This document shows positions 15,603 through 27,818 of a stretch of 41,731 nucleotides of DNA, one piece after another. Under the pieces are notes generated by a model, which was given only the letters and a program-made list of their open reading frames with translations, was not told where the DNA came from and did no database searches. The stretch spans positions 1 to 41,731 of the forward strand of contig NZ_JOCT01000041.1 of NCBI RefSeq assembly GCF_000717875.1. The letters run 5' to 3'. The DNA is from Streptomyces sp. NRRL S-455 (GTDB taxonomy: Bacteria; Actinomycetota; Actinomycetes; Streptomycetales; Streptomycetaceae). The stretch's first letter is position 1, and every line of letters begins with the position of its first letter. Position numbers and translations under genes: made by a program.

Positions 15603-16355
15603 CGCCGCCTCCACAGGCTGTGTACAACCAGTGCACCGTACGAACCGGTTCACCATGCTGCCATGAAGGAGGCGTTCCAGAGGGTGCCCGCGCCGCTTGC
15701 GCTCCGCTGAATGCGCCCCGGCGGAGCCGCCCACACGATCCCGGGCAGTCCCGAACACCCGGACGTCACAAGGAGATACGGGCGGCCAAAGCGGAAGGAA
15801 GAGAAGCAGACAAGCGAGAGGAAGAGAGGCTCAAGGCAACTGCGACGCGAATGCGCCCCCGGTACGCGCCCCAATTACGCCCGGCACGCCGCCAAGTACC
15901 GTGGTCGGAGCCCTGACACCATCGCCCACAGGGTCTGTTTTCAGCCAAATCGGCGTCGTGCGGACAGCCTCGAACACGCTCCGTACAGGCGCCGCCGACC
16001 ATCGCACGCTCGCGCGGCCCGGGAGACGGAGCACGCCTCCCGGACCCTTCCGCCGCCCGCGGGGATGAAGGCGGCGGTGTCCCCCAGCCCACTGGATCCA
16101 GTACAGCGGGCCGACCCACGCACGGACCATGGAACCGCTCCCGTGATGGCCGGAGAAGAGCGCACGGACAGGCGCACGGCCACACAGTGGGAGCACGCCG
16201 CGACTGCCCGTATACGACCCGTACTTCCGTACGGACCACAATCCCGCCAACCGGAAGAATGCCCCTTAACGCTTGGGATGCGGCGAACTACGCTGTGTTT
16301 ACGAATGCCGCACGGTTATGCCAGCGCGGCAGCCGTCTGTGTCGAGGGGTGGCTC
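15603..16355. other. long upstream region of the sporulation-associated gene
   Basis: A 753-bp gap without a gene I can support. The frame of the downstream gene stays open back to 15711, but the residues are Arg/Pro-rich and non-conserved, and the GAGGGGTGG before 16356 marks the real start. 15766-15840 is purine-rich with an AAGGAG that has no start codon after it. A weak promoter candidate (TTGGGA at 16273, 17 bp, TGTTTA) lies about 60 bp before the gene. A long regulated leader would be normal for a developmental gene. Confidence 0.45.
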
Positions 16356-22916: not shown

Positions 22917-23945
22917 TTACGGATTGAGTCCCTTGCCCCGCAGCCACGCCATCGGGTCGATGCCGCCGGAGCCACCGTTGTGGACCTCGAGGTGCAGGTG
23001 CGCTCCGGTGACGTTGCCGGTGGCGCCCACGCGGCCGATGACATCGCCCGTGCTGACCTTCTGGCCGACGCTGACGCCGATGGACGACTGGTGCGCGTAC
23101 CAGATCTCCGTGCCGTCATCGAGGGTGAGGACGGTCTTGTAGCCGTACGACCCGCTCCAGCCGGCCTCCGTGATGGTGCCGCTGTGCACCGCCTTGATGG
23201 GGGTACCCGTGGGCGCGGCGAAGTCCAGGCCCGTGTGGTAGCCGGAGGACCAGTAGGCGCCGGCCTGGCCGAAGCTGGAGGTGATGGTGTACGAGGAGGT
23301 CGGCAGCGTGTACTGCTTGGCGAGGGCGGCGAGCCGCTCGGCCTCGGCCTTCTTGCGGGCCTCCTCCTCGGCCTTCCGCTTGGCTTCGGCGGCCTTGGCC
23401 TTGGCTTCCGCTTCGGCCTTGGCGGCGGCTTCCTTGGCGGCCTTCTCGGCGGCGGCCGCGGCTTCCTCGGCGGCCTTGGTCTCGATCTGCTCCTGCTGGT
23501 GCTCGACCTGGGCCATGATCCGGGCGCGCAGTGCCTCACCGGCGCCGGAGGTGCCCTGCTCGGTGTCGGCGGACGCCGTGGCGAGGTCGCTGAGCGGAGT
23601 GGCGGAGCCTTCGGGTGTGTCGTCGTCCGAGATGAGGGAACCCACCGAGGGAAGGTCCGACACGGAGATCGACACCGGCGGCTTGCCGGTCTGGGCGCTG
23701 GCCATACCGCCCGCGCCCACGGCGGCTATGACGCCGACGCCCAGGACGGTGGAGCTGCGGGCGAGCCCTCCGCCGCGCTGCTTGGTGACGCGATGCCGGC
23801 CACGGACGGGACGGATGGACTCCGCACTGGGGTTCCACTCCTGGAACGGGCCCTCGTCGGTACGCAGACCGCCGTAGCCGAAGGTCTCGGTGTCGCGCTG
23901 GTTCGGCGCGGACGGGGCCGCGGGGGCAGGCCGGTTGGACGCCAC
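22917..23945 (-). CDS. M23 (LytM-type) peptidoglycan endopeptidase, riboswitch-controlled
   Basis: A 342-residue exported cell-wall hydrolase. A cytosolic N-terminus of about 60 residues is followed by a hydrophobic export segment (VLGVGVIAAVGAGGMASA), a Ser/Asp-rich linker, an Ala/Glu/Lys coiled coil (about 145-215) and a LytM domain (about 220-340). Zinc ligands lie in HTGLDFAAPTGTP and in HLHLEV; the domain would cut peptide cross-links in peptidoglycan. GTG at 23945 follows AAAGGAG. A c-di-AMP riboswitch directly precedes it, so second-messenger level should set expression, linking wall cleavage to turgor and growth, as known for other Streptomyces wall hydrolases. Likely the SCO4108 equivalent (recalled). 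Confidence 0.92.
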   Translation of the reverse strand: MASNRPAPAAPSAPNQRDTETFGYGGLRTDEGPFQEWNPSAESIRPVRGRHRVTKQRGGGLARSSTVLGVGVIAAVGAGGMASAQTGKPPVSISVSDLPSVGSLISDDDTPEGSATPLSDLATASADTEQGTSGAGEALRARIMAQVEHQQEQIETKAAEEAAAAAEKAAKEAAAKAEAEAKAKAAEAKRKAEEEARKKAEAERLAALAKQYTLPTSSYTITSSFGQAGAYWSSGYHTGLDFAAPTGTPIKAVHSGTITEAGWSGSYGYKTVLTLDDGTEIWYAHQSSIGVSVGQKVSTGDVIGRVGATGNVTGAHLHLEVHNGGSGGIDPMAWLRGKGLNP

Positions 23946-23969
23946 GTGGGCGTACTCCTTTCCTTCCTT

Positions 23970-24115
23970 CTCGCCTACCGGGTTAGCTGACGGGTTCGGA
24001 GCAGGAAGGTCTCCTACGCGCGTATAACCACCGTGCTTCCACGGCGGCTTACGCCCGATTCACCCCAAGTTGTGGTTCCCCGGTTCCCTTTCGGGATTCG
24101 GCGCGTGCGCACGGA
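23970..24115 (-). promoter_or_regulatory. c-di-AMP (ydaO/yuaA) riboswitch
   Basis: On the minus strand the leader contains the ydaO core: CGCCGAATCC, GGAACCGGGGAACC, TTGGGGTGAATCG, then a variable arm, AGGAGACC, CGTCAGCTAACCCGG and GTAGGCG. These are the conserved blocks of the class in their normal order, ending about 25 nt before the start codon. c-di-AMP binding normally lowers expression of the following gene by premature termination. Recognition is by consensus blocks; no folding was run. Confidence 0.92.
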
Positions 24116-24532: not shown

Positions 24533-25663
24533 TCAGGTCAGCAGGTGGTGGTTCGGGGCCTTGGCGGCGTCCTCGTGCTCGGGGAGGACGACGACCTGTG
24601 CTCCTCCGTCCGCCAGGACGCCACCGCCGTCGGCCGCCGCCACGAAGGTGTCCGGCTCGCGCCAGGCCGTGACGACCCGCCGTACGCCCGCGTCGAGGAT
24701 CAGCCGGGCACAGGGCGCGGGGCGGGAGGCCCGGCGGGCGCAGGGCTCCAGGCTGCTGTACACCGTCGCGCCGGGGAGCCTCGGGTCGGCCGGGTCGGTC
24801 TTGGCGAGGGCCGCCTCCTCGGCGTGCACGACCGGATCGCCGCCCTCCCGGGAGTGACCGCGGGCCAGTTCCGTACCGTCGGCCGCGACCACCACCGCAC
24901 CGACGCTGAACGCCGTGTCCGAGGCAGGGCATTGGGCGGCCAGTTCGCAGGCGAGGGCGAGCCAGTGGTGGTCGGCGGCGGTGGGGAGCGGGCCGGCGCT
25001 CGGAGCGGTCGGCTCGTACCGCATGAGGACCACGTCCTCGATCTGCCGGGTCTCCAGCAGCCGGAGCCGGCCGGACTGGTAGCCGCCGGGCCCGAAGAGG
25101 CGGGGCGCGTCGGGGGTGCCCACGAAGAGCGGGGCGAGGACCAGCTGGAGTTCGTCGGCGAGGCCCTGGGTGAGCAGTTGGGTGTGGATCAGGCCGCCGC
25201 CCTCGACCATGAGGCGCCGTACGCCCCGGACGTCGTGCAGGTGCGTGAGGAGTCGGCGCCAGTCGAGCTCGGCGCCGAGCGGGACGACGTCGGTGGCGAG
25301 GCCGAGGGCACGGGCGCGTCCGGCGCCCTCGTCGGTGGTGTAGAGGACCTTCTCGCCGCCGGTGTGCCAGAACCGGGCCGCCGGGTCGAGGTCGCCGGAG
25401 CCGCTGACGGTGACCTTGAGCGGGTACTCCGGTTTACCGGCGGCCGTGCGGGCGGCGCGCCGCTCGTCCGAGTTGACCAGCAGCCGCGGGTTGTCGGCGC
25501 GGATGGTCCCGGCGCCCACCAGGATCGCGTCCACGGACGCCCGGACCTCGTCGACCCGGTCGAAGTCCGCTGGGCTGGACAGGAGCAGGCGTTCGGGGCC
25601 GGTGTCGTCCAGGTAGCCGTCGAGGGAGACGGCGGCGGACAGCAGGACGTACGGGTGGGGCAT
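24533..25663 (-). CDS. RibD-like bifunctional protein with reversed domain order
   Basis: A 376-residue protein. Residues about 5-225 form a RibD_C/DHFR-like reductase (SAAVSLDGYLDD, then DAILVGAGTIRADNPRLL and MVEGGGLIHTQLL). Residues about 240-376 form a cytidine-deaminase-fold domain with zinc ligands in HAEEAAL and SLEPCARRASRPAPC. Ordinary RibD carries the deaminase first and the reductase second. The two would convert the GTP cyclohydrolase II product to 5-amino-6-ribitylamino-uracil phosphate. GGGAG precedes ATG 25663. It is divergent from a MarR gene and close to a GTP cyclohydrolase II gene, all sharing one operator type. Function as a riboflavin-pathway pair is inferred from domains and context. 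Confidence 0.85.
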   Translation of the reverse strand: MPHPYVLLSAAVSLDGYLDDTGPERLLLSSPADFDRVDEVRASVDAILVGAGTIRADNPRLLVNSDERRAARTAAGKPEYPLKVTVSGSGDLDPAARFWHTGGEKVLYTTDEGAGRARALGLATDVVPLGAELDWRRLLTHLHDVRGVRRLMVEGGGLIHTQLLTQGLADELQLVLAPLFVGTPDAPRLFGPGGYQSGRLRLLETRQIEDVVLMRYEPTAPSAGPLPTAADHHWLALACELAAQCPASDTAFSVGAVVVAADGTELARGHSREGGDPVVHAEEAALAKTDPADPRLPGATVYSSLEPCARRASRPAPCARLILDAGVRRVVTAWREPDTFVAAADGGGVLADGGAQVVVLPEHEDAAKAPNHHLLT

Positions 25664-25689
25664 CGACGCTCCCGGCTCGTTGGAACGGC

Positions 25690-25718
25690 GGACTGATGGC
25701 GGACTGATAGTGGACTGA
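25690..25718. repeat. three GGACTGA direct repeats with 11-bp period
   Basis: GGACTGA occurs at 25690-25696, 25701-25707 and 25712-25718, exactly 11 bp apart and therefore on about the same face of the helix. They lie in the leader/promoter of the RibD-like gene and may bind a regulator or be a slippage product. Confidence 0.7.
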
Positions 25719-25744
25719 CGGAACGGGCTTGGACGGAATGGGGC

Positions 25745-25764
25745 TTGGTTCAAGTTTGAAACAA
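25745..25764. promoter_or_regulatory. MarR operator O1 overlapping the marR promoter
   Basis: Near-palindrome TTGgTTCAA-gt-TTGAAaCAA. Its first hexamer TTGGTT is also the -35 of the MarR promoter; a 17-bp spacer leads to -10 TACACT (25768-25773). The start codon at 25780 lies where transcription should begin, so the mRNA is probably leaderless. Binding here would repress marR and could block the divergent RibD-like gene. Confidence 0.72.
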
Positions 25765-25779
25765 ACCTACACTGATGAC

Positions 25780-26295
25780 ATGACGACTCGCTGGCTCACC
25801 CCCGAGGAGCAACGCGCCTGGCGCGCGTACGTCGCCGCCTCACTGCTCCTCGAGGACGCGATCGACCGGCAGCTGCAGCAGGACGCCGGCATGCCGCATC
25901 TGTACTACTCCATCCTGTCCGTACTGTCGGAGTCTCCGGAACGGCGGCTGCGGATGACCGACCTCGCCGAGCGGCTGAAGATCACGCGCAGCCGGCTGAC
26001 GTACGCGGTGACACGGCTGGAGAAGGACGGCCTGCTGCGGCGCGAGGCCTGCCGGTACGACAAGCGGGGCAGCATCGCGGCCCTGACCGACGACGGGTTC
26101 GCCGTACTGGAGCGCGCCGCGCCCGGGCACGTCGAGACCGTGCGGAGCTTCCTGTTCGACCGGCTCAGCGAGGAGCAGGTGGGGCAGTTGGAGGAGATCT
26201 CCGCGGCGATCGCGCAGGGACTCCAGGAGGACGGATCCCGGCCCGCGTCGGACGACGTGCCGTGGCGGCGGAGGTCGTCGACGGCCTGTTCGTGA
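25780..26295 (+). CDS. MarR-family regulator of the rib module
   Basis: A 171-residue MarR protein: winged helix near 60-110 (RMTDLAERLKITRSRLTYAVTR, then wing CRYDKRGSIAALTDDG) and helical dimerisation ends. It starts 7 nt after a TACACT -10 hexamer and has no ribosome binding site, so translation of a leaderless mRNA is likely. It sits between the RibD-like gene (divergent) and the GTP cyclohydrolase II gene (co-directional). Three matching palindromes overlie the promoters, so it probably represses itself and both enzymes. The inducer may be a flavin-pathway compound, a phenolic or an oxidant; nothing in the sequence decides. Confidence 0.85.
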   Translation: MTTRWLTPEEQRAWRAYVAASLLLEDAIDRQLQQDAGMPHLYYSILSVLSESPERRLRMTDLAERLKITRSRLTYAVTRLEKDGLLRREACRYDKRGSIAALTDDGFAVLERAAPGHVETVRSFLFDRLSEEQVGQLEEISAAIAQGLQEDGSRPASDDVPWRRRSSTACS

Positions 26296-26322
26296 CGTGC
26301 GCCACAAGGCGCCGTATTCACA

Positions 26323-26342
26323 TTGCTTCAAATTTAAAGCAA
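26323..26342. promoter_or_regulatory. MarR operator O2 overlapping the ribA promoter
   Basis: Palindrome TTGCTTcAAATTTaAAGCAA with one mismatched pair. As at O1, its first hexamer TTGCTT serves as -35, followed by a 17-bp spacer and -10 TAGTGT (26346-26351). Confidence 0.75.
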
Positions 26343-26365
26343 GAGTAGTGTCCGGGCCCATGGAA

Positions 26366-26385
26366 CTGCTTCAAATCTGAAGCAG
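26366..26385. promoter_or_regulatory. MarR operator O3 downstream of the ribA start site
   Basis: Palindrome CTGCTTCAAATCTGAAGCAG with one mismatched pair. Its centre is 43 bp from that of O2, about four helical turns, which would permit cooperative binding. It lies just after the expected transcription start of the cyclohydrolase gene. Confidence 0.75.
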
Positions 26386-26428
26386 TACGGCTGTGCAGCC
26401 GAACAGGAACGGAACCCGGAGGCCCCGC

Positions 26429-27070
26429 ATGCCCGACACCCCCGCCGTCGTCGCCACCCCGCGCTCCCGCGTCCGGATCCCGCTGCGCTTCCACGACGGC
26501 TACCGGGCCGACGCCGAACTCGTCACCTTCCACGGCCTCGCCGACGGCCTGGAGCACGTGGCCATCGTCCTGGGCGAGCCCGGCCCGGTTCCGCTGGTGC
26601 GGCTGCACTCCGAGTGCCTGACCGGGGACGTGTTCGGTTCGGCTCGCTGCGACTGCGGTCCGCAGTTGCGCGAGGCGGTCGAGCGCATAGCCGACCGCGG
26701 CGGCGTGCTCCTCTACCTCCGCCAGGAGGGCCGGGGCATCGGCCTCTACAACAAGCTCGACGCGTACGCCCTCCAGGACGAGGGCCTCGACACCTACGAG
26801 GCGAACGCCGCCCTGGGGCTGCCGGAGGACGCCCGCGACTACACGGCGGCGGCCCAGATGCTCCGGGCCCTGGGCATCGGCGAGCTGGACCTGCTGTCCA
26901 ACAACCCCGACAAGTCCGGCCAGCTGCGCGCCCTGGGAGTCGACGTGCGCGACCGGATCCCGACGGGCGTCTTCACCACCGCGCACAACGTCCGCTACCT
27001 GCGCGCGAAGGTCCTTCAGACGCAGCACACGCTGCCGCTCGCCGCGCTGACGGAGCTCAGCGCCGGCTGA
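26429..27070 (+). CDS. ribA: GTP cyclohydrolase II (stand-alone RibA)
   Basis: A 213-residue enzyme that opens GTP and removes formate and pyrophosphate to give 2,5-diamino-6-ribosylamino-pyrimidinone phosphate. Zinc cysteines lie in SECLTGDVFGSARCDC; RQEGRGIGLYNKLDAYALQD and LLSNNPDKSGQL form the substrate site. The Tyr in KLDAY (Tyr105 in E. coli numbering) is kept, unlike the Streptomyces paralogue reported to stop at a formamidopyrimidine, so the full reaction is expected. There is no fused RibB domain. ATG 26429 follows GGAGG. The gene has its own promoter with two MarR operators and is probably a second, inducible copy beside a housekeeping rib operon elsewhere. Confidence 0.92.
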   Translation: MPDTPAVVATPRSRVRIPLRFHDGYRADAELVTFHGLADGLEHVAIVLGEPGPVPLVRLHSECLTGDVFGSARCDCGPQLREAVERIADRGGVLLYLRQEGRGIGLYNKLDAYALQDEGLDTYEANAALGLPEDARDYTAAAQMLRALGIGELDLLSNNPDKSGQLRALGVDVRDRIPTGVFTTAHNVRYLRAKVLQTQHTLPLAALTELSAG

Positions 27071-27170
27071 GCTTCCCGGTCCCGTCCGGGCGGGTGAAAG
27101 AAGCTGCTTGCACCTCGGCTCATCGGGTACAGCCTTTGAAAGAGGGCGACCTCCGCAGTACCCGGAGCTT

Positions 27171-27818
27171 ATGGAAAGTGACCGTTTTGTGACCGAACTC
27201 GGCGGCCCCGGTGACCACCGGGCGAGGGGAGCGGGCGATGGCCCGGAAGCCGTCGCGTCACAGATCGCCGCTGCTGTGGAGAGTCTGACCGCCCTGTGGT
27301 CGATCGCCGCCCAGGACGCCTCCCTGCGGCTGTCCCTGCACCAACTGCGGGCGCTGCGGACGCTGGAGGCCGCTCCCGGCCTGAACCTCACGGCCCTGTC
27401 CGACCGGCTGGACATCGGCCTTCCCACGGCCAGCCGCCTCTGCGACCGCCTGGCGGCGGCCGGCCTCCTGGAGCGCGTCCCGCATCCGGACACCCGCCGC
27501 GAGGTCCAGTTGTGGCTCACCCCGCACGGACGACACGTCCTGGGCGACATCGCCGGCCGCCGCACCGAGGCCCTGGCCACGGCACTGGCGGCGATGAAGC
27601 CGGACGACCGGGCGGCGTTGCGCACGGGGTTGCGGGGGTTTCTCGCGGCGCGGGACTCTGGGCTTCCCCGTACCGACGGGGGGAACGAATCAATCGGGAT
27701 GAACACCAGCGTTGCGAAAAGGACTGAAGAGACGAACAGAACCGAGAGGACCGATAGGGTCGGCAGGACCGACGGGACCGACCCGACCGACGGGCCCGAC
27801 AGGACCGACGGGCACTGA
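27171..27818 (+). CDS. MarR-type regulator with repetitive Arg-Thr-Asp tail
   Basis: A 215-residue protein with a winged helix near 60-140 (NLTALSDRLDIGLPTASRLCDRL, then RREVQLWLTPHGR). It is a paralogue of the protein at 32257-32751: both carry SRLCDRLxAAGxxER, and the two genes flank the Rsb genes. The last ~35 residues are a low-complexity tail of RTD/GTD units without family counterpart, made by repeats of GACCGACGG-type DNA. ATG 27171 has GGAG close upstream. A role in control of the Rsb cluster is inferred from position only. Confidence 0.8.
   Translation: MESDRFVTELGGPGDHRARGAGDGPEAVASQIAAAVESLTALWSIAAQDASLRLSLHQLRALRTLEAAPGLNLTALSDRLDIGLPTASRLCDRLAAAGLLERVPHPDTRREVQLWLTPHGRHVLGDIAGRRTEALATALAAMKPDDRAALRTGLRGFLAARDSGLPRTDGGNESIGMNTSVAKRTEETNRTERTDRVGRTDGTDPTDGPDRTDGH

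Follow-up and report, generated by a model that had tools for sequence, protein, structure and literature searches.

A 41,731-bp stretch of Streptomyces sp. NRRL S-455 DNA, which is a single contig of a genome of 8,232,740 bases and is referred to below as the window, carries a module of three genes involved or putatively involved in riboflavin synthesis. These are a RibD-like protein with the reductase domain placed before the deaminase domain (the reversed RibD, 24533..25663, minus strand), a divergently transcribed MarR-family regulator (marR, 25780..26295, plus strand) and, behind marR, a stand-alone GTP cyclohydrolase II (ribA, 26429..27070, plus strand). We propose, with a probability of about 0.7, that a reduction-first RibD has displaced the canonical RibD, and that a self-repressing MarR controls the reversed RibD together with an extra RibA, uncoupling the early supply of the pathway from flavin mononucleotide (FMN). 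This proposal draws on the gene content, the unique and conserved operators, the lack of a canonical RibD, the near-exclusion of the two RibD types and the diagnostic residues of the enzyme. The grouping of the three genes had been pointed out in a preliminary description of the window, and the Pfam domains agree with it.

Proposed displacement of the canonical RibD

The reversed RibD has 376 amino acids and most likely starts with the ATG at 25663 rather than with the distant TTG of the longest open reading frame. The Pfam reductase domain PF01872 covers residues 4-212 and the deaminase domain PF00383 covers residues 231-332, the protein being divisible into a Rib7-like reductase (approximately residues 1-217) and a Rib2-like zinc deaminase (approximately 225-376). 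The nearest named locus, 96% identical, is from Streptomyces djakartensis. The rib operon of NRRL S-455 is found on another contig (C25), where an FMN riboswitch is followed, in this order, by ribE, ribM, ribBA and ribH, with no ribD. A genome search with TIGR00326 detected no canonical RibD, its matches being the two halves of the reversed RibD, a TadA-like deaminase (C46) and a reductase-only gene (C33). Neither of the latter two was accepted as a RibD: the C46 protein is by eye a TadA-type tRNA deaminase, matched over the deaminase part alone, and the C33 gene (29% identity) encodes a reductase only. Further PF00383 matches (C12, and two in C4) do not match TIGR00326.

Among 246 Streptomyces genomes, 104 contain only the fusion, 131 only a canonical RibD, four both (G093, G118, G176 and G215) and seven neither. 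The fusion count takes in partial or split-up matches in G062, G077, G106, G130 and G139, and leaves out G012, where a 62% match over residues 1-291 has an internal stop and a canonical RibD is present. The genomes with neither type include two that are 79-82% complete (G001 and G050) and three drafts in 550-1420 pieces (G102, G135 and G242); the remaining two are G037, with a more distant separate pair, and G156, which is similar by its match. In G037 the pair (L124) consists of adjoining genes for a reduction-type reductase and a deaminase, near phosphatase and anti-sigma-like genes. It perhaps represents, as does G156 when judged by matches alone, a second and independent displacement of the canonical RibD.

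In all 27 genomes examined where the fusion occupies the RibD role (26 sampled genomes, G118, G176 and G215 included, plus NRRL S-455 itself), the FMN riboswitch directly adjoins ribE, at a distance of 129-288 bases, and the order riboswitch-ribD-ribE is found in 10 of 10 sampled canonical loci. In G093, a canonical ribD is kept between the riboswitch and ribE (gap 1266) and the fusion is located elsewhere. In a tree of these proteins, the 86 RibD-role fusions group together with a support of 100/95, and copies that are accessory, split or from other genera fall outside this group.

The genomes with both RibD types have gene neighborhoods of their own. The reversed RibD of G093 (L122, L139) lies beside RibA, SUMF1-like and WD40-like genes, an arrangement that we take to resemble toxoflavin-type clusters; no toxoflavin-like genes (WD40, methyltransferase, SUMF1-type) were recognised by eye among the window genes listed, no whole-window domain search having been made. 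In G118 (L126) and G215 (L127), whose rib operons have no ribD, an extra canonical-type RibD adjoins an extra RibA-like gene, and in G118 a WD40-like gene is also beside it.

Outside the genus, 354 genomes of the class were searched for the reduction-type reductase (E <=1e-30) and for full canonical RibD (E <=1e-60). The reductase occurs without a full canonical RibD in 66 genomes, 246 have the canonical enzyme only, 27 have neither and the rest have both. In most of the cases listed, the reductase and deaminase matches are separate. Sometimes they adjoin each other, arranged as in the fusion, and this hints at a route by which the fusion arose. On balance, we lean towards the broader view that many actinomycetes, including about four in ten of the sampled Streptomyces, run reduction-first riboflavin synthesis with Rib7/Rib2-like enzymes replacing the bacterial RibD, and that in one Streptomyces clade these enzymes were fused, with a MarR replacing the FMN riboswitch on the upper pathway in most members.

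Residues diagnostic of the reaction order

According to two reports, eubacteria are usually assigned a single order of reactions, deamination and then reduction (PMC3631187, PMC8256712). As described in the former, Lys151 of B. subtilis RibG (BsRibG) and Lys152 of E. coli RibD (EcRibD) select 5-amino-6-ribosylamino-2,4-pyrimidinedione 5'-phosphate (AROPP), this position being Thr in fungi and Asn in archaea, and with the T35K replacement yeast Rib7 comes to prefer AROPP, approximately 3-fold (PMC3631187). The latter describes how fungal Rib2 binds the phosphate by Arg105 and Ser107, located at +3 and +5 from Cys102 in the PCX8-9C motif (PMC8256712).

In the reversed RibD and its kin, the position of BsRibG Lys151 is occupied by Ser (Ser9 in NRRL S-455) in all 206 loci, a set in which some genomes are represented twice. 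The deaminase could be aligned for 200 of these loci, and its loop is PCX9C in 198 and PCX10C in two, with Arg at +3 in all 200 and Ser at +5 in 196. The opposite combination, Lys with PCX8C (EPCNHTGRTGPC or EPCDHQGRTGPC), characterizes the canonical RibDs of the genus in 13 of 14 loci (12 genes), the 14th locus being a fragment that yielded no motif. We assigned the reductase domain to the Rib7 type by the small polar residue replacing Lys151 and by its closest similarity to archaeal Rib7 (Methanosarcina mazei Rib7 gives 111.5 bits, and B. subtilis RibD 49.9), its TIGR01508 (archaeal reductase) score of 128.2 being below the cut-off of 186.45 bits. The deaminase domain was assigned to the Rib2 type by its two zinc motifs, HXE and PCX8-9C, together with the Arg at +3 and the Ser at +5. 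Of the further substrate residues of the fungal AoRib2, Asn59 is replaced, and a Glu in WREP may match Glu136. A fold model of the protein, which is too weak for active-site geometry and was used for ranking alone, has archaeal reductases as its top 16 matches and AoRib2 as the first deaminase-only matches (ranks 48 and 49), with bacterial RibDs between them. Judged by sequence, both domains of the reversed RibD show hallmarks of the archaeal/fungal, reduction-first order.

The predicted MarR regulon and its operators

The putative repressor encoded by marR (171 amino acids, ATG at 25780) belongs to the MarR family by its MarR domain, with PF12802 and PF01047 above the Pfam cut-off, and its closest solved chain by sequence is 3zpl. 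RibA (ATG at 26429) is above the cut-off for PF00925 and PRK00393, and below it for TIGR00505 (187.3 bits, cut-off 205.85). Paralogues of RibA are encoded in the same genome within RibBA on C25 and on C22. The C22 paralogue, a third GTP cyclohydrolase II (L049 7415-8179), has AMALQ, compared with AYALQ in the RibA of the trio and AYELQ in RibBA; we presume the Met of AMALQ to be a mark of the S. coelicolor SCO6655 type, with a different product.

Three operators that match the pattern TTGCTTCAANNTTGAAGCAA with few mismatches are predicted in the module. Site 1 (25745..25764, two mismatches) lies in the divergent ribD-marR spacer, site 2 (26323..26342, one mismatch) overlaps the -35 element of the ribA promoter, and site 3 (26366..26385, three mismatches), which is 43 bases away from site 2, follows closely on the position where ribA transcription is predicted to begin. 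These are the only matches in the whole genome at three or fewer mismatches, and a control pattern, TTGCTTCAANNTTGAAGCAA read backward, has none. The predicted marR promoter (25745..25773, plus strand) consists of the -35 hexamer TTGGTT (25745-25750) and, after 17 bp, the -10 hexamer TACACT (25768-25773); the predicted ribA promoter (26323..26351, plus strand) has TTGCTT (26323-26328), again 17 bp, and TAGTGT (26346-26351). Since just 6 bases separate the marR -10 element from the marR ATG, the marR mRNA is likely leaderless.

Conservation of the sites was surveyed in the window and 88 further loci (L018-L046 and L066-L124), drawn from 87 of the 108 genomes with the fusion and, in addition, from G012 and G037. 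A protein search for the three members of the trio matched both MarR and RibA in 68 of the 89 loci. One of the 68 (L123, from G012) was left out as a trio, its MarR match being just 34%, another (L118) is rearranged, and 66, including the window, have the standard order. All 66 retain the three sites at five or fewer mismatches, the centre of site 1 being 24-27 bases 5' of the marR ATG and the spacing between sites 2 and 3 being 38-48 bases, most commonly 44. The information per column in these 66 loci is 1.85, 1.65 and 1.75 bits within sites 1, 2 and 3, respectively, compared with 0.31, 0.34 and 0.50 bits in their left 25-base flanks and 1.20, 0.67 and 0.21 bits in their right flanks; the higher right-flank values of sites 1 and 2 coincide with the -10 elements located there and, for site 1, also with the marR start. 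In L118, ribA has been relocated to the opposite side of ribD and two sites have moved along with it. In L087 and L096, site 1 is within 13 bases of the ribD start (the start codon being set by alignment to that of the window), so the ribD promoter should overlap site 1 and ribD should also be under its control.

Among the 21 loci that lack MarR, sites at five or fewer mismatches are absent from 20, and one locus (L119) has a single site at five, as does L123. We rejected the joint loss of MarR and operators as proving binding independently: the lost segment itself includes sites 2 and 3, and thus just the conservation of the sites and the moved ribA of L118 count. MarR of the module type, defined by at least 67% identity, is present in 80 of the 246 Streptomyces genomes, all 80 of which carry the reversed RibD fusion; the remaining MarR matches listed are paralogues near 60% identity. 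The genomes of the marR-less loci gave no match to a module-type MarR at another position. On the tree, MarR presence has at least five changes on the starred branches, the bootstrap being not fully settled. RibD is thus retained while marR and ribA come and go, a pattern mostly readable as losses.

The preliminary description had listed the same three palindromes, two of them with the -35 hexamer in the left arm and exactly 17 bp to the -10 element, and had suggested both a genome-wide search for the palindrome and a survey of the trio. The genome search confirms the sites, both spacings are correct, and the survey finds the trio in most of the loci examined. Its portrayal of the module as a self-contained regulated unit also stands, with one MarR, three operators unique in the genome and two enzymes as the targets visible by comparison.

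Proposed mechanism and alternative explanations

In the proposed mechanism, RibA would make 2,5-diamino-6-ribosylamino-4-pyrimidinone 5'-phosphate (DAROPP) from GTP, and the reversed RibD would most likely reduce it to the 6-ribitylamino derivative (DARIPP), then deaminate the latter to 5-amino-6-ribitylamino-2,4-pyrimidinedione 5'-phosphate (ARIPP), as in archaea and fungi. After dephosphorylation, ARIPP would feed both riboflavin and coenzyme F420; the early steps are common to flavin and F420 synthesis in mycobacteria, where F420 synthesis likewise draws on 5-amino-6-ribitylaminouracil (PMC12855090). Through the three near-identical palindromes, MarR would keep marR itself, ribA and the divergently oriented ribD repressed, and it would release them on binding a small-molecule ligand. 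The lower pathway (ribE, ribM, ribBA and ribH) would stay under the FMN riboswitch. Since the lower pathway keeps the riboswitch and the upper one does not, FMN alone would not determine the supply of ARIPP, which the MarR signal would set; our guess is that this signal is a pathway-related or flavin-demand metabolite. MarR binding, repression, the reaction order and the metabolic role are what we infer from the sequences. With the sole RibD found in the genome, and given that this type replaces the canonical enzyme across the genus, the module should be needed for all riboflavin.

Several observations weigh against this proposal. Four Streptomyces genomes carry the fusion together with a canonical-type RibD, or five if the broken-looking match of G012 is counted, and both types coexist in 15 of the non-Streptomyces genomes. 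Reduction-type reductases (52-67% identity), several of which adjoin a separate deaminase gene, also occur in at least 24 of the 131 genomes with a canonical RibD only. Such copies in canonical-RibD Streptomyces look accessory, and the exclusion applies to the full fusion, not to the reduction-type enzyme as such. All 86 RibD-role fusions belong to a single clade, and the sampled genomes are related, a kinship that Fisher tests ignore, overstating independence. The module-type MarR is missing from 28 of the 108 genomes with the fusion, so the enzyme does not require control by MarR. As regards the enzyme, its key reductase residue is Ser, neither the fungal Thr nor the archaeal Asn, Asn59 of AoRib2 (two before the zinc His) is replaced by Val, the fold model is weak (mean predicted local distance difference test score, pLDDT, 65.6), and the deaminase domain, compared over its full length, is closer to bacterial RibD (47.6 bits) than to AoRib2 (27.8 bits).

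This greater similarity of the deaminase to bacterial RibD, along with the TIGR00326 match, which extends over both domains though at 136 bits it is below the cut-off of 156.35, would fit an enzyme that deaminates first despite its domain order, with the displacement and the MarR control remaining as proposed. We consider such an order rather unlikely, given that the substrate-choosing Lys is lost in all 206 loci, the deaminase loop is Rib2-like, the canonical RibDs of the genus have the opposite features, and the reductase is nearest to archaeal Rib7. Another view concerns the signal rather than the enzyme: MarR may sense phenolic or redox stress and raise the flavin supply, which is a variant of the proposed mechanism and not exclusive with it. 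Such a role is typical of many MarR proteins, for which these agents are a common class of ligands, and the module is a stand-alone unit outside FMN control, but the operator occurs at no other position of the genome, and we regard stress sensing as a possible, rather doubtful, variant.

The preliminary description interpreted the module as a means of providing the intermediate on induction, not for bulk riboflavin but for a purpose such as F420, a specialised metabolite or a signal. The module indeed has a dedicated MarR and no FMN riboswitch, the G093 cluster with its apparent toxoflavin likeness contains a reversed-type RibD, and further reduction-type copies are present in genomes that also have a canonical RibD. 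This interpretation is nevertheless very improbable: no biosynthetic cluster was seen around the module among the window genes listed, no RibD other than that of the module was found in the genome, and across a clade of the genus the canonical RibD has given way to the fusion. The accompanying statement that lumazine and riboflavin synthases are absent is true of the window and untrue of the genome, which has the rib operon on C25. A softer form of the idea survives, in which the upper pathway is uncoupled from FMN and the riboswitch acts on the lower pathway alone.

Neighboring features of the window

Directly 3' of ribA there is a second MarR-type gene (27108-27818, plus strand), which has no palindrome of the TTGCTTCAANNTTGAAGCAA kind and whose product has a C-terminus rich in Thr, Asp and Arg repeats. 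On the other side, close to the trio, a ydaO-type cyclic di-AMP riboswitch (23957-24113, minus strand, 96.7 bits) is the apparent leader of a peptidase-like gene at 22917-23945; a riboswitch of this type also lies next to the RibD gene in 9 of the 20 loci that were scanned in relatives. A match to the Streptomyces small RNA family Scr4115 is located at 16013-16121 (minus strand, 103.7 bits).

Novelty and implications

In the literature searched, parts of which were available, we met no description of a MarR regulator of Streptomyces rib genes or of a reduction-first bacterial RibD, although Grill et al. 2007 and Kissling et al. 2020 may hold parts of either. Searches for the Streptomyces coelicolor locus returned expression or regulator tables alone. 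No ligand of the module MarR was found.

If the proposal is true, many actinomycetes use an order of reactions opposite to the usual eubacterial account, and an essential vitamin gene has been missed by databases that name these proteins 'dihydrofolate reductase family protein'. In that case, antagonists of the FMN riboswitch such as roseoflavin would not act on the RibD step. The module would also be a clean example, provided by nature, of a riboswitch giving way to a protein repressor, and the signal of this repressor could be looked for.

Comparison with known systems

The rib operon of Streptomyces davawensis/davaonensis has, as in NRRL S-455, the riboswitch directly 5' of its first gene. 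Neither of its designations, ribBMAH and ribE1MAB5H, includes a ribD or ribG, and ribB/ribE1, as read from the names, would be the riboflavin synthase; the available parts of its descriptions make no mention of a MarR, of operators or of a reversed RibD (PMC3239331, PMC11039241). Canonical RibD/RibG proteins (TIGR00326; B. subtilis RibG and E. coli RibD) have the same two catalytic domains as the reversed RibD and carry out the net conversion of DAROPP to ARIPP that is also expected of it, whereas the reversed RibD has the opposite domain order, a TIGR00326 score under the cut-off, no FMN riboswitch, Ser in place of Lys151 and PCX9C in place of PCX8C.

With the archaeal and fungal enzymes, the reversed RibD shares a reductase closest to the Rib7 of Methanosarcina mazei and, in the deaminase loop, the Arg +3 and Ser +5 of AoRib2. 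It differs from Rib7 and Rib2 in being fused in one bacterial protein, in the Ser that replaces Asn/Thr, in a deaminase that is nearer to bacterial RibD overall and in a reductase that is below the TIGR01508 cut-off. As for the regulator, MarR-family autorepressors with palindromes in a divergent spacer likewise combine a MarR domain with palindromes over their own and target -35 elements; the module MarR is distinguished from them by its predicted private regulon of riboflavin genes.

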